A stretch of 64,000 nt of DNA, from the NCBI GenBank assembly GCA_903867885.1, contig CAIPTD010000041.1, positions 1 through 64,000 on the forward strand. Reading direction: 5' to 3'. Position 1 is the stretch's first letter. The number at the start of each line of letters is the position of its first letter. Below the pieces are notes generated by a model. It saw only the letters and a program-made list of their open reading frames with translations. It was not told where the DNA came from and did no database searches. Positions 23,055 through 35,629 of the stretch are shown in pieces. Origin of the DNA: an uncultured Ferrovum sp. GTDB lineage: Bacteria > Pseudomonadota > Gammaproteobacteria > Burkholderiales > Ferrovaceae. Both the position numbers and the translations under genes were made by a program.

Positions 23055-24746
23055 CTATCTCACCGCTAACTGGTAACACACCAACACAACAGCCACGCCA
23101 CACGCTAAGGTTAGATAGGGCAAAACTCCCGCCCTTGCTTGCGCGCCTTCCCCGGCGATTTGCGGCATATCTTCCACAGCGTCCTTAGGGAACACACCAC
23201 GATCTTGCACATAGTGTCTGTAAATAAAGACAGGAATAATGAGTGCGCTGAATACTGCCCCAGTCAGCAAAGTGCCTGGCCCCCAGAGATCAGCGCCAAA
23301 CCCCATTAACACTAAGTTGAAGAAGGCCAAAAACGTACCTATCGCAAGCAATGGTTTTGAGACCTTAAAAGGTCGATTACGTTCCGCCCTATCAATACGA
23401 TGGATCCAACACGCATTCAAATTTAGAAAATTAAAAATAAAGTAGCTCACATTCGACGCGGCCAAGACAAAAACGTAATCAGACATCAAAAGCAGCAAGA
23501 GATTAAAAACCAAATCCGTGACCATTGCTCCAACAGGGGCGCCGTGTGGGTTCACGCGAGAAAGATAATGAGGCAGCCAGCCATCTACCGAAGCTTGATA
23601 CAAGGTACGGGATGAGCCAGACATGGCTGTCATAATGGTGAGCGATAAGGTTAAAGCCAAGAGTAACAAAATGATTCTTTGCACCCAAACCCCACCTGCG
23701 ACCATTGCAGTTAAGACAACAGGTACGCCGGTACCATTGTAAATTTCAGGTGCCAAAAAGCTACGATGATTCACTGCCATAAATGTTGCACCATGATCAG
23801 CTTCTGAAAGCTGTTTTATATCTGCTAATTCCAAATAGGATTGAAAAGCAATGGGCAGCATCACGAAGACAAATAAGCAAAGTAGCCCTATATACAATGC
23901 GGCCTTAAAAGTATCGCGTTGGGGGTCTTCAAATTCTCTAGTGTAGGAAACAGCTGTTTCCATGCTGTAGGTAGACCAGGCAGCCACAAACAAGCCGCCT
24001 GCCAAAACCGTCCATCCCGCCATATTCCAATGACCATCAGAAACAAACCCATCTGCATCGCGCATCATTGGCACGAAAGGCAGAAAGTGATCAAGGTTTA
24101 AACCTTGTTTAAATAGCGGGATGAGGGCCAAAACCATCAATGGCAGCAAGCCAAGAGCAGCCAGTGCCATGGTTGCTCGGGCTGAACGCAATATCCCTCC
24201 GTGCTGGATTGCGAAAGAAGAAACCAGAATCGAGGCACCCAATAAGAATGTCGCATTGACACGTAAGGTGAGACCGGATTTGAGTCCATTCAAATCCAAT
24301 AATGTCCACTGCCAAGTATTCATCCAAGAATCCGGAGGAAAGAGCGCTGAGAGGACATAGCCAGCCAACAAACCTGATCCGATTGCTAACACTGGCGACC
24401 AAGCCAACCAGTGGCACCAAACCGATACAGGAGCGACGAGCTTACTATAGCGTACCCAAGCTAAAGCACCGTACACAGATGCACCACCAGCCTTATTGGG
24501 AAACAAACCGGCCATTTCAGCATAGATGAGGGATTGTATAAATCCGATGATGATAGAAGCAGTCCAGACGAACCATGCAGGTCGCCCTACAGTCGCTGCC
24601 ACCGCCCCCATAGAGAACAAAACCAGGGCTGGAACCCCACTTGCCACCCAGAACGCACCCGTCCAATCGATCTTGCGATGCAAGCTCGTACTGGATGTAC
24701 TGCGTTGTTTTCCCTCAAAATTCCATGCGAGGAGCTGGGTTTGCAT
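23055..24746 (-). CDS. APC-family amino acid/amine permease
   Basis: Multi-TM APC protein, paralogous to 31798..33495. The ORF opens to 24806, but Met at 24746 (MQTQLLAWN...) matches the paralog's start (MQSQ...). Confidence 0.85.
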   Translation of the reverse strand: MQTQLLAWNFEGKQRSTSSTSLHRKIDWTGAFWVASGVPALVLFSMGAVAATVGRPAWFVWTASIIIGFIQSLIYAEMAGLFPNKAGGASVYGALAWVRYSKLVAPVSVWCHWLAWSPVLAIGSGLLAGYVLSALFPPDSWMNTWQWTLLDLNGLKSGLTLRVNATFLLGASILVSSFAIQHGGILRSARATMALAALGLLPLMVLALIPLFKQGLNLDHFLPFVPMMRDADGFVSDGHWNMAGWTVLAGGLFVAAWSTYSMETAVSYTREFEDPQRDTFKAALYIGLLCLFVFVMLPIAFQSYLELADIKQLSEADHGATFMAVNHRSFLAPEIYNGTGVPVVLTAMVAGGVWVQRIILLLLALTLSLTIMTAMSGSSRTLYQASVDGWLPHYLSRVNPHGAPVGAMVTDLVFNLLLLLMSDYVFVLAASNVSYFIFNFLNLNACWIHRIDRAERNRPFKVSKPLLAIGTFLAFFNLVLMGFGADLWGPGTLLTGAVFSALIIPVFIYRHYVQDRGVFPKDAVEDMPQIAGEGAQARAGVLPYLTLACGVAVVLVCYQLAVR

Positions 24747-24776
24747 TACTTTATAATTCCATTGAATATCCTGAGT

Positions 24777-24839
24777 ATTTGACCGCACCCCAAACTTCAG
24801 CCACAAGTCAGCATTGGGGGTAGCTCAAAGGTGGTAAGG
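24777..24839 (-). promoter_or_regulatory. Conserved 63-nt leader/operator element upstream of permease 1
   Basis: Sense strand CCTTACCACCTTTGAGCTACCCCCAATGCTGACTTGT...GGTGCGGTCAAAT aligns without gaps to 31701..31763 (50/63 identical by hand, 33/37 in the first block). Confidence 0.7.
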
Positions 24840-24892: not shown

Positions 24893-25369
24893 ATGAATGT
24901 TCAGGATTACCAGCAAACTTTAATCGATATGTATCAAGGGGAGGTATTGGGGGAAGCGCTTTTTTCTAGGCTGCTTGAAACCGAAACCAACCCTGAAATG
25001 GGTTATGCCTATAGTTGCTTGCTCCAACTCGAAACCGAGACCAAGGCACGCGTTCGATCTATTCTGATGCGTCACGGACTTCCGCTCGCTGAAACAGAAT
25101 CCAGTCGAATCCAAGGGACCGCTTGGGCAAATTCACTTCGCACATTAGATCCTCAGGCGTTTCTAAATACATTTGCAGAAGAGATCGCACCTTACGCTAA
25201 GCGGTATTCTGATATTGCTCAGCAAGCTGTCTCTGAAGATGCTGAGTGCCTGCGATATGTGGCAGCACATGAGCAGGCTATTCATCATTTTCTGATCCAT
25301 TTACAAACACACTCACCTCGCGAATCTATAAGCATAGCAAGGGGTTTACTCAGTTTTCCTATCGATTAA
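24893..25369 (+). CDS. Uncharacterised helical 158-aa protein, possibly ferritin-like fold
   Basis: Complete ORF; helical sequence with E/H-rich segments (YQGEVLGEALFSRLLE; AHEQAIHHFL); first plus-strand gene of the divergent set. Confidence 0.6.
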   Translation: MNVQDYQQTLIDMYQGEVLGEALFSRLLETETNPEMGYAYSCLLQLETETKARVRSILMRHGLPLAETESSRIQGTAWANSLRTLDPQAFLNTFAEEIAPYAKRYSDIAQQAVSEDAECLRYVAAHEQAIHHFLIHLQTHSPRESISIARGLLSFPID

Positions 25370-25398: not shown

Positions 25399-25509
25399 AT
25401 GAGCATTGTCCGCACACTGCGCGCGCCAGAGAATCGGCTTGATGAAAAATGCGCTTTGTGCGCTTTGCCGAAAACCATGAGGGTGTTATGCAACGCAATT
25501 CGATTTTAA
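25399..25509 (+). CDS. Putative 36-aa leader ORF overlapping the start of dmmD
   Basis: MSIVRTLRAPENRLDEKCALCALPKTMRVLCNAIRF*; preceded by AAGGGG at SD-like spacing; overlaps ATG at 25488 in another frame. Confidence 0.35.
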   Translation: MSIVRTLRAPENRLDEKCALCALPKTMRVLCNAIRF

Positions 25510-26600
25510 ATGAACGTCATCGTCAGTTAGGTTCTTTACTTGACGGAGAAACTTGGAACAACATGCCGCTCCCATGGCGCTACAGCACAGATGCGCATGA
25601 AGAAGTCATTGCCACGCGCACCCGCGCAGGTCTTTATGATGTAACCGCACTGAATCTGATCAACGTTTCAGGCAAAGACGCTGCCTCAGTCTTAGACCAA
25701 CTCGTCAGTATTGATATTGCTCGCTTGAAACCAGGTTGCTCTCGCCTTGCTGCTGAAGTCAATGATGATGGCGCATTAGTCGATGACATCATGGTCATTC
25801 GCGATGGGCCTGACGCTTTTCGCTTATCACACGGAAGTGGCAAAACCAAAGAACACTTGGATCGCGTCGCTCAGGGTCGAGAAATAACTATTCAGGCTGA
25901 CCTCGATACACATATCCTTTCACTCCAAGGCCCTAAGTCTTTGCAAATATTGGCCCCCCATGCTGCCCTTGGTCTTGAAACCCTCCCCTACTTTCAGCAC
26001 ACCACCACCACACTATTCGGCGTCTCCGTCATCATTGCGCGCGGTGGCTACTCGGGAGAATTAGGCTACGAAGTCTATTGCGCATCCAAAAATGCCGTAT
26101 CGCTATGGGATCAAATTTTGGAAGCCGGAAAGCCTTATGGTGCGATAGCAGCTTCATGGAATGCGCTTGAATTAACCCGTATTGAAGGTGCTTTATTATT
26201 CTTCCCATTTGAAATGCCAGAAGGCGATACCACCCCATGGGAAGTCAACATGTCTTGGGCGGTAGACCTAGACAAAAAAGGCCCTTATATCGGCAAAGAT
26301 GCCCTACTGAAACTACGTGGGCGCGAGCGCGTGAAACAGGCTGGACTCATCTGCGATGCGTCCTATGCGGTTGAAGCGGGATCCAAGATATTCAAAGACT
26401 CGCTTGAGGTTGGTGTTGTTACGAGTTCCAGCTACAGTCACTATTTAATGCAATCGTTAGCGTTAGTGCATTTACTTCCCACTCATACAGCATTAGGCAC
26501 ACGAGTGGTGGTAAAAGGATTAAAAGGGGAATGCACTGCATGCGTTGTTAAAACACCGTTTTATGATCCTCTGCGCCAAAGAACGCATGGGACACCTTGA
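25488..26600 (+). CDS. dmmD: GcvT-family folate-binding subunit of dimethylamine monooxygenase cluster
   Basis: GcvT-like (GLYDVTALNLINVSGKDAASVLDQL; LSLQGPKSLQIL; GGYSGELGYEVYC). ORF opens at 25449; the Met at 25488 (MQRNSILNERHRQLGS) fits family starts better. Confidence 0.75.
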   Translation: MQRNSILNERHRQLGSLLDGETWNNMPLPWRYSTDAHEEVIATRTRAGLYDVTALNLINVSGKDAASVLDQLVSIDIARLKPGCSRLAAEVNDDGALVDDIMVIRDGPDAFRLSHGSGKTKEHLDRVAQGREITIQADLDTHILSLQGPKSLQILAPHAALGLETLPYFQHTTTTLFGVSVIIARGGYSGELGYEVYCASKNAVSLWDQILEAGKPYGAIAASWNALELTRIEGALLFFPFEMPEGDTTPWEVNMSWAVDLDKKGPYIGKDALLKLRGRERVKQAGLICDASYAVEAGSKIFKDSLEVGVVTSSSYSHYLMQSLALVHLLPTHTALGTRVVVKGLKGECTACVVKTPFYDPLRQRTHGTP

Positions 26601-26661: not shown

Positions 26662-27255
26662 ATGTCCGCTTACACCTATCGTGTTCGCAGCCAACCTAAC
26701 TATCCCAGTCTTAAATGGGATGTATCAGGGGCTAGGCATCTTCTCGTTATTTTAGATCTAGACACAAATTCTATTGCTGAATTATGCCGCTCGCCTTGCC
26801 CTGGCCCACTTGAGATTTTAGTGCGAGGAGAAGCGACCCACCCTGCTCTCATTCCTTTCAACAAAGCGAATATCCTCATTCATTCCTTTGCTTCGATGGA
26901 TACACTGATTGTGGCCCTAGAAAACGCTCTCGATCAGACTACAATGGGGTTGCGACTCTATGCCTTGGGGCATGAAGATGGCCTCTGGAAATGCAATAAA
27001 GCCGGACAAAAAGTGGGGATGAGCCGCGATGAAATTCAACTCGCTCAAGCAAGCACAACAGGGCGGCCGGTATACTGTGTGCATTGTGGCCACCACATGA
27101 ATTTGATTCATACCAACATCACTGTTTGCACGGGCTGTAAACGCCATCTCTTAGTTCGTGATCATTTCTCGCGTTTACTCGGGGCCTATATGGGCTTTCA
27201 GATTGATGCCGAATCCCCGGGCTTGATTCCAGCAGTTGAAGAGGTGTTCCCATGA
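26662..27255 (+). CDS. dmmA: DmmA-like subunit with C-terminal zinc-ribbon-like motif
   Basis: CVHCGHHMNLIHTNITVCTGC (CX2C-X13-CX2C) C-terminal domain; gene order with reductase and DUF3445. Confidence 0.72.
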   Translation: MSAYTYRVRSQPNYPSLKWDVSGARHLLVILDLDTNSIAELCRSPCPGPLEILVRGEATHPALIPFNKANILIHSFASMDTLIVALENALDQTTMGLRLYALGHEDGLWKCNKAGQKVGMSRDEIQLAQASTTGRPVYCVHCGHHMNLIHTNITVCTGCKRHLLVRDHFSRLLGAYMGFQIDAESPGLIPAVEEVFP

Positions 27256-28205
27256 GCGCCATGAGAAATGTAGTCGTAAGCCGAATTCAATCCTTAGCGC
27301 CAGGTATTAAAGAATTTACTTTTGTTGCACCACCGGGAGAAGAATTATCGCGATTTTCGGCTGGCAGCCACATCGTCATTCACAGTGTGCTGAAGGGGAA
27401 ACCCCATCACAACCCTTATTCACTTCTGGGTAGTCCCGACGATCCCCATTGGCGCATTGCTGTGCGAAGACAAGAAGTTTCAAGGGGGGGCACGGCTTAC
27501 ATGCATGAGGAGTTGAAAGAAGGGGATACCCTGCGTGTCAGCGAGCCAATCAACCTTTTCCCTCTCGTGCGATTAGGCCGCAAATATATTCTGGTGGCAG
27601 GAGGGATTGGCGTTACCCCCATCCTTTCTCATGCCCGAGAAATGTCGCGACTCAAAATGGATTTCGAAGTGCACTATGCAGTGCGTAGTGCAGAGTTTTT
27701 AGTATTGAGCGATGAACTTCGTGCACTCGCCCCAGGACGCTTTTATACCTACTTCGATTCAGAACAAGAGCGCCCAGATTTTAAACAATTATTTGGTAAC
27801 CAACCCCTCGGTACGCACATCTATGTATGCGGTCCTTCAGGGATGATTGATGCCTGTCTAAACGCAGGACGCGCTGCAGGCTGGCCCGAAAGCCATCTTC
27901 ATAGTGAAAAGTTTTTAGCTGCAGAGCATGGTGAAGAATTTACCGTCGTTGCAGCGCAATCAAATGTCACGATTACTGTGGCCTCAGATACCTCTCTTCT
28001 CGATGCGCTCGAAGAAGCAGGGTTAAACCCACCCTGTCTATGCCGAGGGGGTGCGTGTGGTCAGTGTGAAGCCGAGGTCGTATCTTGCGATAGTGAATTT
28101 GAACATCGTGACATTTTCCTCACTGATGCAGAAAAATCATCTAGAAAAAAAATTATGCCATGCGTGTCTCGTGTCAAGGGCGGTACCTTGATACTCAATA
28201 TTTGA
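27252..28205 (+). CDS. dmmB: PDR/VanB-type ferredoxin reductase subunit (FMN/2Fe-2S)
   Basis: NAD/FMN reductase domain (GGIGVTPILSHAREM; YVCGPSGMIDA) and C-terminal 2Fe-2S motif CLCRGGACGQC...C. The letter follows gene order; naming varies between organisms. Confidence 0.8.
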   Translation: MSAMRNVVVSRIQSLAPGIKEFTFVAPPGEELSRFSAGSHIVIHSVLKGKPHHNPYSLLGSPDDPHWRIAVRRQEVSRGGTAYMHEELKEGDTLRVSEPINLFPLVRLGRKYILVAGGIGVTPILSHAREMSRLKMDFEVHYAVRSAEFLVLSDELRALAPGRFYTYFDSEQERPDFKQLFGNQPLGTHIYVCGPSGMIDACLNAGRAAGWPESHLHSEKFLAAEHGEEFTVVAAQSNVTITVASDTSLLDALEEAGLNPPCLCRGGACGQCEAEVVSCDSEFEHRDIFLTDAEKSSRKKIMPCVSRVKGGTLILNI

Positions 28206-28218
28206 ACTGGAGCAAACC

Positions 28219-29235
28219 GTGAGCATTCCCTTTCGCCAAGAAACCTTTAGAGACGACTTCACTTATCGGAATTCAGCCGAAGCAGTAAGGAGATTTCCTT
28301 TCCCCTTTCCGCAAGATGCTTACATGTACTCGGTGAATATTGAGCCCCATGTTTCAGTTGATCCAGGCTCTGTCTATGAGCATACCTTTGATATCGATGA
28401 GCACTATATCGCTGAATGCGAAGACCGTGCGATCACGCTAGGTAAAACCAAGAATCGTTTCTTAGCCCTACCCCACATGATGGATGCGCAATGGGATACC
28501 TTGGAATTACTGATGACTTCCATGGCGCGGGATTACCCAGATTTATTTGCCCTCAGCCGCGATGGCGCAAAATGGCACTGGATGAATAAGCCACTGAATA
28601 TCGATCAACATTTTGTATTTGGCGATACCCGCACCCTACCCTATGCGCCCTTGGAATATATTTCGCGCCAAGGCCAGGGTGACTTCATTTTGTTGGATCA
28701 ACGTGAAGGAAATTTATGGGTGGATGCCGGCGTGGTGACCACACAAGCAGATTGGTCACTCGCCTTTGATGTGGGAATGTCGTTCAATGAATGGCATGGT
28801 CCTGTTCCCATGGCTGCAGAAATTGGGGTCTTTGATCGTGCACTCAAATTCTTGTTGATGTTGCAGCATGGCGCGCCAGTGCGGCGCTTGAATTGGACCA
28901 TGACCATCAACCCTCGTCTTGATACCTCTCCCGAACACTATGACCAATGGGGTCCTGATCGTGCCTCAGTGACACCTGAAAACGTGGGCGCAAAAGTACA
29001 TCTGCGCGTAGAGGTTCAAACATTGTTCCGCTTACCACGGAGCAATGGCGTACTTTTTGGTGTGCGTTGTTACCTTGCCAGCTTGAATGATCTGGTGACC
29101 AACCCTGCATGGGGACAGCGTTTGCATCGTGTATTGCGTGATCTTCCTCAGCCCTTAGCGGAATACAAAGGCCTCGTGCGTTATCGCCAGACTGCAGTAG
29201 ATTGGCTAAAGCAATTTGATCAAAGTCATTCATGA
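28219..29235 (+). CDS. dmmC: DUF3445 haem-dependent oxidative N-demethylase (dimethylamine monooxygenase) catalytic subunit
   Basis: 338 aa; DUF3445-type sequence in dmm gene context. The letter follows gene order. Confidence 0.78.
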   Translation: MSIPFRQETFRDDFTYRNSAEAVRRFPFPFPQDAYMYSVNIEPHVSVDPGSVYEHTFDIDEHYIAECEDRAITLGKTKNRFLALPHMMDAQWDTLELLMTSMARDYPDLFALSRDGAKWHWMNKPLNIDQHFVFGDTRTLPYAPLEYISRQGQGDFILLDQREGNLWVDAGVVTTQADWSLAFDVGMSFNEWHGPVPMAAEIGVFDRALKFLLMLQHGAPVRRLNWTMTINPRLDTSPEHYDQWGPDRASVTPENVGAKVHLRVEVQTLFRLPRSNGVLFGVRCYLASLNDLVTNPAWGQRLHRVLRDLPQPLAEYKGLVRYRQTAVDWLKQFDQSHS

Positions 29236-29288: not shown

Positions 29289-30383
29289 ATGGGCCTAGTC
29301 ACTGCATCAAGTGATGCCAATCCAGCTCTTTCCTCTGCACTTGCCCAGCATTTCGCGCGCAATCAAAGATGGGGCTTTGTATGGGCGTTATGGACAGCAA
29401 TTCTATGGGGCGCTTGGTATGTACCCGGTACTGCTCTCTGGTTTGAACATCCCTTTTCTGATATTCCTACAGATGCTCAAACTTTAAAACTCGCTGCTAC
29501 AGCCGTGATGACTTGGGTGCATGCTATCGCGGTATTCGTATTCCTCATGCTTTGGAATGGCGTACTGGGTAAGGTCAAAGATTACGGTCGCACCATGGTG
29601 CGCTTCAAAAAAATCTCCAAGTGGTATGCCTTGGCCTCACTGTGCGGTGGCCCCATGGCGATCTTTGGTTCGTATATGGCCATGGGATTTGTAGGCCCAG
29701 TATTCGCTGCAGTGACTTCACTATTTTATCCAGTGATAGGCGCACTGGTCGCACGTCTTTGGTACAACGAAAAAATATCCGGACGAGCCGCAATTGGCAT
29801 GGCAGTGATTATCTTTGGAGGCATGGTGATCTATGGCCCCGGTCTCTTCGGTGAAGTCAGCAAAGACGCCAATCCCATGGCATGGCTGGGCTATCTAGGC
29901 GGTGTCATGTCAGCTATTGGCTGGGGCACAGAAGGCGCAGTGGCAGGGCGGGCTATGGATGTCTCGGATCCTGATGTGGGTATACAGTGCCGCTTCACCT
30001 TTGAGATTTTTTTCTGGGGCTTCATCATTCTTCCAATCTTGGCACTATTCACTGATCTGCCTATTCTCGCTTTGATCAAAGACACCGTGTTTGAACCCAA
30101 AGCCATGATCTGGATTTTTCTGGCCGCCTCCTGCCATGCATATTGCTATACCTCTTGGTACAAAAGCTTCAGCCTCATTGGGGTGGCACGCGGCGAAGCT
30201 ATCGGAAATTTGTATGCCATCTTTGCTCTGATTTTCATTGCAGCATTTACCCTACAGTTCCCTCAGTGGTATTTCATCTTAGGGCTCATTCTCACGGTGT
30301 CAGGGAGCTTCATCATGTTCAGTGAACCTGCGGCATCAATCGAAAACTTGCGCGACCACAGCAGCGCTGAGTGTGAAGTATGA
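29289..30383 (+). CDS. DMT-superfamily-like membrane transporter
   Basis: About 10 TM segments with EamA-like features (WTAILWGAWYVPGTALWF... FAAVTSLFYPVIGALVARLWYNEKISGRAAIGMAVIIFGGMVI). Confidence 0.75.
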   Translation: MGLVTASSDANPALSSALAQHFARNQRWGFVWALWTAILWGAWYVPGTALWFEHPFSDIPTDAQTLKLAATAVMTWVHAIAVFVFLMLWNGVLGKVKDYGRTMVRFKKISKWYALASLCGGPMAIFGSYMAMGFVGPVFAAVTSLFYPVIGALVARLWYNEKISGRAAIGMAVIIFGGMVIYGPGLFGEVSKDANPMAWLGYLGGVMSAIGWGTEGAVAGRAMDVSDPDVGIQCRFTFEIFFWGFIILPILALFTDLPILALIKDTVFEPKAMIWIFLAASCHAYCYTSWYKSFSLIGVARGEAIGNLYAIFALIFIAAFTLQFPQWYFILGLILTVSGSFIMFSEPAASIENLRDHSSAECEV

Positions 30384-30661
30384 AGCTCCATCAAAAAGGC
30401 TTTTTGCTTGTATATTTAAAACGGGCAGACAGCCTGTGGGATGAACAGATCATTTCTGCCACACTCAAGGAATATGCCTTGCAGGGAGTCTATTGGGAAA
30501 ACCATATTCGCGTATCGCTCGACGAGCTCGCTGCAGGCGGCCTAATCACTCGACTTGAAGAAAAACTCAGCGAGAAAAACGGCAAAGCTATTTTGCAATT
30601 TCGCTATCAAGTCTCGCCCTTCGGCAAAAACCGCATTGTCGATGCCGGACTTGAAGATTAA
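30380..30661 (+). CDS. Uncharacterised 93-aa soluble protein
   Basis: ATGA overlap with the transporter stop; coherent small-protein composition. Confidence 0.7.
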   Translation: MKLHQKGFLLVYLKRADSLWDEQIISATLKEYALQGVYWENHIRVSLDELAAGGLITRLEEKLSEKNGKAILQFRYQVSPFGKNRIVDAGLED

Positions 30662-30688
30662 AACAGAGCCATCAACTAGGACAATGCC

Positions 30689-30805
30689 ATGAATAGCTTT
30701 TGGGGTTATGCAGGTGCGGATCTCTTCGCCATCGTCGTGATTGGGGGTGTCAGCGCACTGAGCTTATTCAGCGCTTATTTGTTCGTCAAAAACTACGGGC
30801 ACTAA
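30689..30805 (+). CDS. 38-aa single-TM small protein
   Basis: MNSFWGYAGADLFAIVVIGGVSALSLFSAYLFVKNYGH*; AGGA SD-like sequence about 7 nt upstream; missed by the ORF-length cutoff. Confidence 0.6.
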   Translation: MNSFWGYAGADLFAIVVIGGVSALSLFSAYLFVKNYGH

Positions 30806-30888
30806 AGAGTCAAATACGTGCCCTCATCAAGCACCGTATCAAGCCCTGTCCCACACAGTAAGCCTAAGGTCTCTTACGAAACGCAGAC

Positions 30889-31656
30889 TCAAGTCTTGCC
30901 TCGAGACGCTAGCCGCGCGTTGCATGCCTCAGCAAACGCACCAAATAAAGCCATCGAAACAGGATTCTCTAAAGCCTTGTACTCAGGGTGCCACTGAACC
31001 GCCAAAGCAAATGCAGGCGCCCCCATCACACTCACTGCTTCTACCAAACCATCTTCAGCAAAAGCCTCAACACTCAATGCTGGCGATAAATCCTTCACAC
31101 CCTGCCAGTGCAGACTATTCACTTGAATGGTTTCTTTTCCACCTAGTATGTTTTGCAGAATACCGCCAGGGGCGAGAGCCACCGAATGTGCCATTCGGTA
31201 CTGCACCTCAAGGGGATCCGTATCGTGCCATCGGTGATCCATCATCCCGGCTTGCAGATGAACAAACTGATGCAAGGACCCCCCTAGTGCAACATTCAAT
31301 TCCTGAAAGCCACGACAGATTCCAAATAGAGGTACACCCTTGGCAAGCGCTTGGTGTATTAATGGAAAGGTGGTGGCATCACGATCAAGGTCAAGTGCCA
31401 GATCAGCAGCCTCTGGAACTGATCCATATCGCGCGGGATCGACGTTTGAAGGCGAACCTGTCAGTAAGATGCCATCCAAGCGTTCTAACAGGCCAGCAAT
31501 ATCGAGATCAGATCCCAAAGCGGGGATAAGAACGGGCAGTGCATTACAAGCCGAAGCAATCGCCCCAATGTATTCTGCACCCACCCTGTGCTTAGGAAAA
31601 TCTTGAGTATGCTGAGTACAAGATGTAATGCCGATCAGTGGTGCCATGTTTTTCAT
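30889..31656 (-). CDS. Class I GATase-like gamma-glutamyl-amine hydrolase (PuuD family)
   Basis: GVPLFGICRGFQELNVALGGSLHQ nucleophile motif; VQWHPEY His/Glu motif. Confidence 0.85.
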   Translation of the reverse strand: MKNMAPLIGITSCTQHTQDFPKHRVGAEYIGAIASACNALPVLIPALGSDLDIAGLLERLDGILLTGSPSNVDPARYGSVPEAADLALDLDRDATTFPLIHQALAKGVPLFGICRGFQELNVALGGSLHQFVHLQAGMMDHRWHDTDPLEVQYRMAHSVALAPGGILQNILGGKETIQVNSLHWQGVKDLSPALSVEAFAEDGLVEAVSVMGAPAFALAVQWHPEYKALENPVSMALFGAFAEACNARLASRGKT

Positions 31657-31797: not shown

Positions 31798-33495
31798 ATG
31801 CAGAGCCAGACCGCAGAAACACACGCCAACACCGCCGCCACGCATAGCGGGGACGATGCTTCATTACAAAGAAAAATTGATTGGACCGGTGCATTTTGGG
31901 TTGCCAGTGGTGTTCCGGCGCTTGCCCTATTCAATATTGGAGCCGTGGCTGCAACCGTAGGTCGGCCTGCCTGGATTGTTTGGATTGTCTCAATCCTAAT
32001 GGGCTTTATCCAATCCTTTACCTATGCCGAGATTGCGGGTTTATTCCCTAACAAGTCTGGTGGCGCATCCGTTTATGGCGCAGTGGCTTGGGTGCGTTAC
32101 AGCAAACTCATCGCCCCGGTATCCGTTTGGGCTAACTGGTTTGCTTGGTCACCCGTCATCGCGATTGGTTGTGGTTTAACAGCAGGCTTTATTCTCAGCG
32201 CAACATTCCCGGCGGATGCTGCCATCAACACCTGGCAAATCACTTTGCTGGATTTAAGTTTCATTAAGTCTGAACTCTGCCTCAGGATCAATGCGACTTT
32301 CTTATTAGGTTTGGTGATTCTGCTCATCACCTTTGCCATTCAGCATGGCGGAATTCTGCGCTCGGCCAAAACCACGATGATTTTAGGCATTGCAGGTATG
32401 TTGCCGTTAACGGTGATTTCGGTGATTCCCATCGTCACCGGTGATTTGCCTGCTGCACATTTTTGGCCCTTTTTACCCATCGCACATGATGCAGCGGGCC
32501 AAGTGGTGGATGGCAAATGGGACATGGCGGGTTTTACAGTGCTGATGGGTGGCTTATTCATGGCGGCTTGGTCTACCTACGGCTTCGAAACAGCCGTCTG
32601 CTACACCCGTGAATTTCGCGATCCGAAGAAGGATACTTTCAAAGCCATTTTCTACTCTGGTTTGTTATGTCTGTTTGTTTTCACCTTCCTGCCTTTAGCA
32701 TTCCAAGCCTATTTGGGTTTAGGTGATTTAGTTACCCCTCCAGTTCTTGATGCAGCGGGTAAAGTCATCACACCCGCAGTGTATGGCGGGATGTTGGCTC
32801 CTGATATCTACAGCGGTACAGGTGTTGGCAATGTCTTGGCCGCGATCGTGCATGGTGGCCCCTTGGTAAGTCATGTCGTGATTGCAATGTTGGTTTTAGC
32901 CTTAGCGCTCGCCATCATGACCTCTATGGCCGGCTCCTCTCGCACGCTATACCAAGCCTCGGTAGATGGCTGGTTGCCGCGCTACCTTGGCAAGGTGAAC
33001 CAACACGGTGCACCTACCGCAGCCATGTGGACGGATATGATCTTTAACTTGGTCCTACTCTTAATGTCGGATTATGTGTTTGTACTTGCAGCATCAAATG
33101 TGGGTTACTTGATCTTTAACTTCCTGAACTTGAACTCAGGCTGGATTCACCGTATTGATCGTCCAGATTGGGCGCGACCCTTCCGCACTCCAACCTGGTT
33201 ACTGGCTTTAGGTGGCGTATTCTCTTTCGTCAATCTGAGCTTCATGGGATTTGGTGCCGATATTTGGGGACCGAACACACTGCTGATCGGAGTAGGCTTC
33301 TGCGCCCTGATCGTGCCGGTGTTCTGCTATCGGCATTACATTCAGGATAAGGGCGTGTTCCCTCAAGATATGCTTGAAGACATGCATCTTTCGGATGAAT
33401 CTGCCACAGTAAATCGTGCAGGGATTCTGCCTTACCTGACCCTAGCCGCTGGTGTGACGGTTGTATTAGTGAGCTATCACTTTGCGGTGTACTGA
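31798..33495 (+). CDS. APC-family amino acid/amine permease (paralog of 23055..24746)
   Basis: Shared RKIDWTGAFWVASGVPAL.LF..GAVAATVGRPAW...YAE.AGLFPNK.GGASVYGA.AWVRYSKL.APVSVW blocks. Confidence 0.88.
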   Translation: MQSQTAETHANTAATHSGDDASLQRKIDWTGAFWVASGVPALALFNIGAVAATVGRPAWIVWIVSILMGFIQSFTYAEIAGLFPNKSGGASVYGAVAWVRYSKLIAPVSVWANWFAWSPVIAIGCGLTAGFILSATFPADAAINTWQITLLDLSFIKSELCLRINATFLLGLVILLITFAIQHGGILRSAKTTMILGIAGMLPLTVISVIPIVTGDLPAAHFWPFLPIAHDAAGQVVDGKWDMAGFTVLMGGLFMAAWSTYGFETAVCYTREFRDPKKDTFKAIFYSGLLCLFVFTFLPLAFQAYLGLGDLVTPPVLDAAGKVITPAVYGGMLAPDIYSGTGVGNVLAAIVHGGPLVSHVVIAMLVLALALAIMTSMAGSSRTLYQASVDGWLPRYLGKVNQHGAPTAAMWTDMIFNLVLLLMSDYVFVLAASNVGYLIFNFLNLNSGWIHRIDRPDWARPFRTPTWLLALGGVFSFVNLSFMGFGADIWGPNTLLIGVGFCALIVPVFCYRHYIQDKGVFPQDMLEDMHLSDESATVNRAGILPYLTLAAGVTVVLVSYHFAVY

Positions 33496-35070: not shown

Positions 35071-35361
35071 TCAGGATAGCTTTGATGGTTCGATTAATTT
35101 TCCAGTTACATACTTGTGAAGCACACTGGCAATAAGCGTTTGGTAAGGAATCCCCTCTTCCAAAGCCTTAACTTGGATATCATTTAAATCTCCTTTTGAG
35201 AGCCGAATATTGACCCTGCGATCTTTAATTCCAGTGGCCCGCGCGGCAGCTTTAATCTTTTCTAGCTCACTCTTCGTCGCAATCGACTGCAGTTGCCCTG
35301 CTTCATAAGCCTCAAGAATTTCTTTCTCGTCATCCTCTAACTTAATCATTTTTTTCACCAT
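35071..35361 (-). CDS. CopG/BrnA-like antitoxin
   Basis: Small basic/acidic protein with 'RRVNIRLSKGDLNDIQVKALEEGIPYQTLIASVLHKYVTGKL' RHH-like motif; overlaps the upstream gene. Confidence 0.7.
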   Translation of the reverse strand: MVKKMIKLEDDEKEILEAYEAGQLQSIATKSELEKIKAAARATGIKDRRVNIRLSKGDLNDIQVKALEEGIPYQTLIASVLHKYVTGKLIEPSKLS

Positions 35362-35629
35362 GCTTTAAGTACTCCTTTGTTGCCTTGCGACTAGGAATAA
35401 TCGTTTTCATAAACAAATACTCATCTTCTTCAATGTAAGGAACCAAGAAAACGTAGTCATCGCAAGCCACAACCATCAAAAACTGTTTTGGATATTGATC
35501 CCGATTGGGGTGCTTCAATATGTCTAAGAGGCCACCAGAATCTATTGCGATTACGATTCGCTCAAACGAGACCCCTCGCTCAATAACGAGCAACTCATTT
35601 TTTATGCAATTCCATCTAAATAGCTTCAT
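35342..35629 (-). CDS. Putative toxin partner (BrnT-like)
   Basis: 95 aa; 'FRWNCIKNELLVIERGVSFERIV' resembles the BrnT N-terminus; 20-bp overlap with the antitoxin-like gene. Confidence 0.6.
   Translation of the reverse strand: MKLFRWNCIKNELLVIERGVSFERIVIAIDSGGLLDILKHPNRDQYPKQFLMVVACDDYVFLVPYIEEDEYLFMKTIIPSRKATKEYLKHGEKND

Follow-up and report, generated by a model that had tools for sequence, protein, structure and literature searches.

KdpF is a small transporter-associated membrane protein of the same kind as AcrZ, MgtS and MgtU, and FeoC is a winged-helix protein whose gene adjoins feoB. Small membrane proteins of the AcrZ/MgtS/MgtU type bind a transporter and change its specificity or stability (PMC10710835). 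The review describing them lists no small partner for a DMT/EamA permease, and the term "DMT" is absent from its text. The uptake of trimethylamine and dimethylamine by methylotrophs is poorly defined, and both compounds are important to the chemistry of marine nitrogen and of aerosols. The cassette described here names a candidate importer family that is related to a choline importer, lies beside several methylamine-oxidising routes and comes with two small companions. In the window (the whole stretch of 64,000 nucleotides that was analysed, from an uncultured Ferrovum sp.), it is found downstream of a set of dmm genes on the same strand:

25449 to 26600, plus strand: GcvT-type, DmmD-like protein (PF01571, 205 bits)
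26662 to 27255, plus strand: DmmA-family protein (NF041259, 103.9 bits against a cut-off of 60)
27252 to 28205, plus strand: FAD/NAD and 2Fe-2S reductase (ferredoxin reductase), component of the dmm cluster (PF00111, PF00175)
28219 to 29235, plus strand: haem-dependent oxidative N-demethylase alpha-like protein, dmm component (PF11927, 236 bits)
29289 to 30383, plus strand: EamA/DMT permease of 364 aa (PF00892, 45.6 bits; relation to LicB)
30380 to 30661, plus strand: 93-aa protein, predicted winged helix of PadR/LmrR/RTP-like fold (AlphaFold2, Foldseek)
30678 to 30681, plus strand: SD-like AGGA, 7 nt 5' of the microprotein ATG
30689 to 30805, plus strand: single-TM microprotein of 38 aa (translation and HMM A3 matches, selection, topology)

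The naming of this region as a dmm/transporter operon is borne out by the matches to NF041259 and PF11927 and by those of the ferredoxin reductase, GcvT-type and EamA genes; DmmD itself has been described as a GcvT-domain protein (PMC5520151). Two TMAO-permease-like APC transporters that are 65% identical to each other flank the dmm operon (23055 to 24806, minus strand, and 31798 to 33495, plus strand, the latter with 832 bits to NF053774). A 158-aa protein encoded upstream of the GcvT-type gene (24893 to 25369, plus strand) has weak family matches, none of them convincing. Convergent with the microprotein gene is a Peptidase C26 / gamma-glutamyl hydrolase-like gene (30889 to 31656, minus strand) whose substrate could be gamma-glutamylmethylamide, which arises as an intermediate when methylamine is used, and a small gene pair at 35071 to 35629 (minus strand) combines a BrnT toxin-like gene (below cut-off) with a CopG-type antitoxin-like gene.

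Translation of positions 30689 to 30805 on the plus strand gives MNSFWGYAGADLFAIVVIGGVSALSLFSAYLFVKNYGH followed by a stop codon, identical to the peptide of the original prediction, which had further proposed an upstream SD-like AGGA, one hydrophobic helix and a position after a DMT-like transporter and a 93-aa protein. All of these features are present: the AGGA lies as listed above, the protein has a single hydrophobic segment (best 19-residue Kyte-Doolittle mean 2.21), and its ATG is found 27 nt downstream of the stop of the 93-aa ORF at 30661, in a gene order that is the same in the window and in relatives. Taken alone, a 38-aa ORF would be no evidence, because 151 ORFs of at least 30 aa overlap the surrounding 12-kb stretch. 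What raises the microprotein above chance is that 24 distinct loci conserve its reading frame and start codon, its SD-like site, and its length and position, so that the outcome named beforehand as a refutation—a reading frame not conserved in orthologous loci—is the opposite of what we find. An overlapping 53-aa ORF in another frame (30700 to 30861) is not the conserved frame.

A scan of GTDB genomes with the neighbouring transporter as query returned 12 loci, and profile searches (HMM A3) enlarged this set to the 24 distinct coding sequences. Among loci readable downstream, the order of transporter, 93-aa gene and an ORF of 36 to 39 aa is seen in Methylotenera, Methylobacillus, other Methylophilaceae and a Hyphomicrobium, and it recurs in gamma genomes and on plasmids of Cupriavidus and Azoarcus. 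The microprotein relatives share the core FWG(Y/F)xxA(D/H)xxAxxxIxxxSxxxLxxAR; all 24 start with ATG and 23 of them are preceded by an SD-like site. Purifying selection is clear, with pN below pS in 275 of 276 pairs and a dN/dS of about 0.04 to 0.16 in close pairs, and codon variability is highest at position 3 (0.63 versus 0.35 and 0.23). By these sequence criteria, the microprotein is almost certainly a genuine protein-coding gene. It clearly illustrates how a conserved gene can be absent from the annotations examined, probably owing to its shortness.

The Cupriavidus and Azoarcus plasmids carry clear microproteins. On a Paracoccus aminovorans plasmid the microprotein is divergent (MIEFFAWGMPGVIAATVVCIGLPLLALYHARTFVTKI) and was recognised by its position and C-terminus; the profile touches this region weakly and in another frame. 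The gene tables of the Azoarcus and Paracoccus plasmids hold no gene at the microprotein site, PLSDB tables being incomplete. Weak matches of the A1 profile (E 0.0007 to 0.009; L020-L025 and L029-L033) lie mostly within longer open frames or cover just a part of the model and were dropped. Searches of Pfam, NCBIfam and the PDB yielded no family for the microprotein: the window protein has no match in Pfam or NCBIfam, and the best E value of any member against these models is 0.025, to an unrelated sortase signal. A pMMO supernumerary helix was a chance match (E 0.48), and NF052408 (NOVXTKCP), the one suggestive name, did not match at this locus and nowhere exceeded its cut-off.

The microproteins are strikingly uniform in their anatomy, with F4, W5, G6, A10, A14, I18, L26 and A29 (window numbering) invariant in 24/24 and with little variation at Y7 (Y/F), D11 (D/H), S22, R30 and F32, of which S22 and F32 are nearly fixed. 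Each has a single hydrophobic segment within its 36 to 39 aa, as is typical of small transporter-associated membrane proteins, which have one TM helix and fewer than about 50 aa. Conservation along the TM segment is periodic at about 95 degrees, a signal equalled by 30 of 10,000 shuffles, which places the conserved positions on one helix face as expected for packing against a partner. Across all 24 proteins the N-terminal flank contains no K or R (and 37 D or E in total) while the C-terminal flank contains 46 K or R, and an N-out/C-in topology is therefore predicted for every one of them, with a cytoplasmic tail of about 5 to 9 residues.

The linkage of the three genes was followed through 150 Methylophilaceae genomes with permease, microprotein and 93-aa protein as three separate, independent queries. 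The permease occurs in 17 genomes, which are exactly those with the microprotein, and 16 of them also have the 93-aa gene. The 17/17 co-occurrence of permease and microprotein includes shared ancestry and does not represent 17 independent events. In the locus without a 93-aa match (G1161), the microprotein is present only as its C-terminal half; this is apparently the locus that has an assembly gap in L014. On plasmids, the 93-aa query and the transporter query recover the same Paracoccus, Cupriavidus and Azoarcus records. Such stable genetic linkage with one transporter is characteristic of small transporter-associated proteins.

The enzymes beside the trio vary. Most Methylophilaceae loci have it near a trimethylamine dehydrogenase (TMADH; 1547 bits to 1djn) and a TMAO-permease-like APC gene, G835 has it near the trimethylamine monooxygenase Tmm (NF058570, 824 bits versus 675), and in P. 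aminovorans GcvT/ETF-type demethylation genes are nearby. Since the adjoining enzymes differ between loci, it is the transporter and the 93-aa gene that the microprotein accompanies, the common setting being methylated-amine use. G002, Azoarcus, Cupriavidus and G835 carry the trio away from dmm. In G002, which belongs to the window's own genus, it lies downstream of a proC-like region (L056, 10938 to 12429) on a 13-kb contig without any dmm gene, which hints at a cassette that is transferred in one piece. The original prediction of a transporter-associated protein is thus supported in that the presence of the microprotein tracks the permease and the 93-aa gene rather than the dmm genes, and we are highly confident that it is a member of a transporter cassette.

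Additional transporters are found at some of these loci. In Methylophaga sp. OBS4, whose locus comprises the same genes, a guanidine-II (mini-ykkC) riboswitch (47.4 bits) and, after it, an SMR transporter lie between the 93-aa gene and the microprotein (L015, 5381 to 5760), and the 93-aa gene is present a second time as a partial copy (L015, 5911 to 6126). In Methylobacillus sp. MM3 (L011/L061), an SMR transporter follows the microprotein at around 9348 to 9665 of L061. Together, these two cases suggest a recurring link of guanidinium/quaternary-amine export with the cassette.

The permease belongs to the EamA family, its score to PF00892 exceeding the gathering threshold of 28.2 bits over two stretches. 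The sole sequence relative of its subfamily profile in the PDB is the choline importer LicB (7b0k/7paf, E 1.8e-8), and its predicted structure (pLDDT 77.9) also has LicB as top Foldseek match (E 2e-7, TM 0.81 by target length) in a list led by DMT folds. LicB is thus the closest solved relative by both sequence and predicted fold, and the HMM alignment keeps WGxE and YxxxY-type positions, but the relationship is remote with 17-18% identity in the fold alignment. The head of choline is a trimethylammonium group, which together with the relation to LicB makes it reasonable to propose that the permease imports tri- or dimethylamine (or TMAO). No paper that places an EamA permease in a dmm/TMADH cluster was found in a literature search; the "eamA" of a Methylotenera paper is a phosphonate-cluster gene. 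At one locus (L082, G496:C5:1-1504), the gene directly after a subfamily permease begins as a second such permease and runs off the contig end, a tandem duplication whose downstream genes lie outside the assembled sequence. A permease relative of 40% identity in Methanohalobium has neither partner gene adjoining, indicating that the permease fold does not need the microprotein or the 93-aa protein, and, judging from its PDB entry, the solved structure of LicB, a permease of like fold, contains no subunit of this kind.

Because the microprotein of methylamine-using bacteria almost always adjoins the same choline-importer-like transporter, it is probably an accessory part or a regulator of this transporter. 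The linkage is observed, the interaction and the function—translation of the microprotein, binding to the permease, an effect on transport and the substrate itself—are inferred, and with moderate confidence we favour a direct accessory or regulator of a methylated-amine permease. Its original description as a small subunit is plausible, with "subunit" as opposed to "regulator" being a matter of interpretation. As third gene of a mobile three-gene cassette with the EamA/DMT permease, a putative methylated-amine importer, and the predicted winged-helix protein of about 93 aa, the microprotein would most likely insert so that its acidic FWGY N-terminus faces out and its short basic C-terminus faces in, and one conserved helix face would pack along the permease. 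It may then stabilise the permease or tune its activity, as AcrZ, MgtS/MgtU and KdpF do for their own transporters. Should it bind the permease, the DMT superfamily would thereby have a small TM accessory, a kind of partner that we did not encounter for it in the literature searched.

The nature of the 93-aa protein bears on how else the cassette might work. Its ATG overlaps the permease stop by 4 nt, and its AlphaFold2 model is a confident winged helix (H-H-H-E-E-H, pLDDT 93.6) for which Foldseek finds PadR, LmrR, RosR and RTP (replication terminator proteins) at a TM of 0.5-0.69. Plasmid-derived rows were left out of structure prediction. The model therefore has the winged helix of a PadR-type regulator, but the protein matches no family in Pfam/NCBIfam, neither PadR nor FeoC. 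The 93-aa proteins are near neutral or acidic with net charges of -3 to +4, so the partner may be DNA or protein. Given this similarity to PadR/LmrR regulators, the microprotein could instead be mainly the membrane partner of the 93-aa protein, holding this regulator at the membrane and releasing or capturing it by the transport state of the permease as a transport-coupled one-component sensor. In every locus carrying all three genes the 93-aa gene indeed intervenes between permease and microprotein, mostly at a gap of 13-62 nt to the latter (seven loci were left out of this measurement), and the basic C-terminus of the microprotein is predicted to be cytoplasmic. However, the cytoplasmic tail is very short, DNA binding is itself putative at such net charges, and natural variants separate the two small proteins: in G1254 the permease and the microprotein are intact and the 93-aa frame is broken, whereas G531 (99% complete) has an intact 93-aa gene, no detectable permease and a broken microprotein frame. 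Both associate the microprotein with the permease as partner, each being one case and possibly an assembly error. We therefore regard the sensor function as unlikely. Doubtful to a greater degree is a new type of transport-sensing module in which the microprotein would read the state of a LicB-like methylated-amine importer and hold or release the winged-helix protein, so that uptake would directly control methylamine genes.

Both small proteins might also be post-translational accessories of the permease, with the winged-helix one guarding it from FtsH in the manner of FeoC and the microprotein serving as a membrane co-factor. FeoC is a small accessory of FeoB that guards it from FtsH (PMC10710835), and the overlap of the 93-aa gene with the permease gene as well as the lack of a strongly basic charge would fit. 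We nevertheless judge this arrangement improbable because, besides the absent FeoC match, the best folds are of PadR/RTP types and FeoC falls outside the Foldseek top 50. It is very improbable that the microprotein serves the methylamine enzymes or the adjoining APC (TMAO-permease-like) transporter instead of the EamA permease. This idea has in its favour that most Methylophilaceae loci place TMADH and the APC gene near the trio and that the window has dmm next to it, but the enzyme differs between loci with none beside the trio in G002, and the APC gene is absent from the read flanks of G002, Azoarcus, Cupriavidus, G674, G835 and L061. Finally, short hydrophobic ORFs are common, but the probability that this one encodes no functional protein, being instead a random ORF, a leader or a toxic hydrophobic peptide, is negligible, and this is refuted at sequence level by the strong purifying selection and the conserved start, SD-like site and length, by its place as last gene of the unit, which leaves no leader position, and by a profile with a single match in the genome.

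Read as an accessory or regulator of the permease, the microprotein can be set beside several described systems. CcmD of the CcmABC haem exporter likewise adjoins a transporter and is a tiny protein whose single TM helix is oriented N-out/C-in (PMC10903887), but no sequence relation to it was found, and transporter and process are different. FeoB-FeoC resembles the cassette as a compact unit of a transporter and a small partner protein, but the transporter families are unrelated, FeoC has no match here and the cassette has a TM microprotein in addition. Compared to AcrZ, MgtS, MgtU and KdpF, the microprotein shows no sequence match and its partner would be a DMT/EamA permease in a cassette with a winged-helix protein, but it shares with them a length below 50 aa, one TM helix and the link with a larger transporter.
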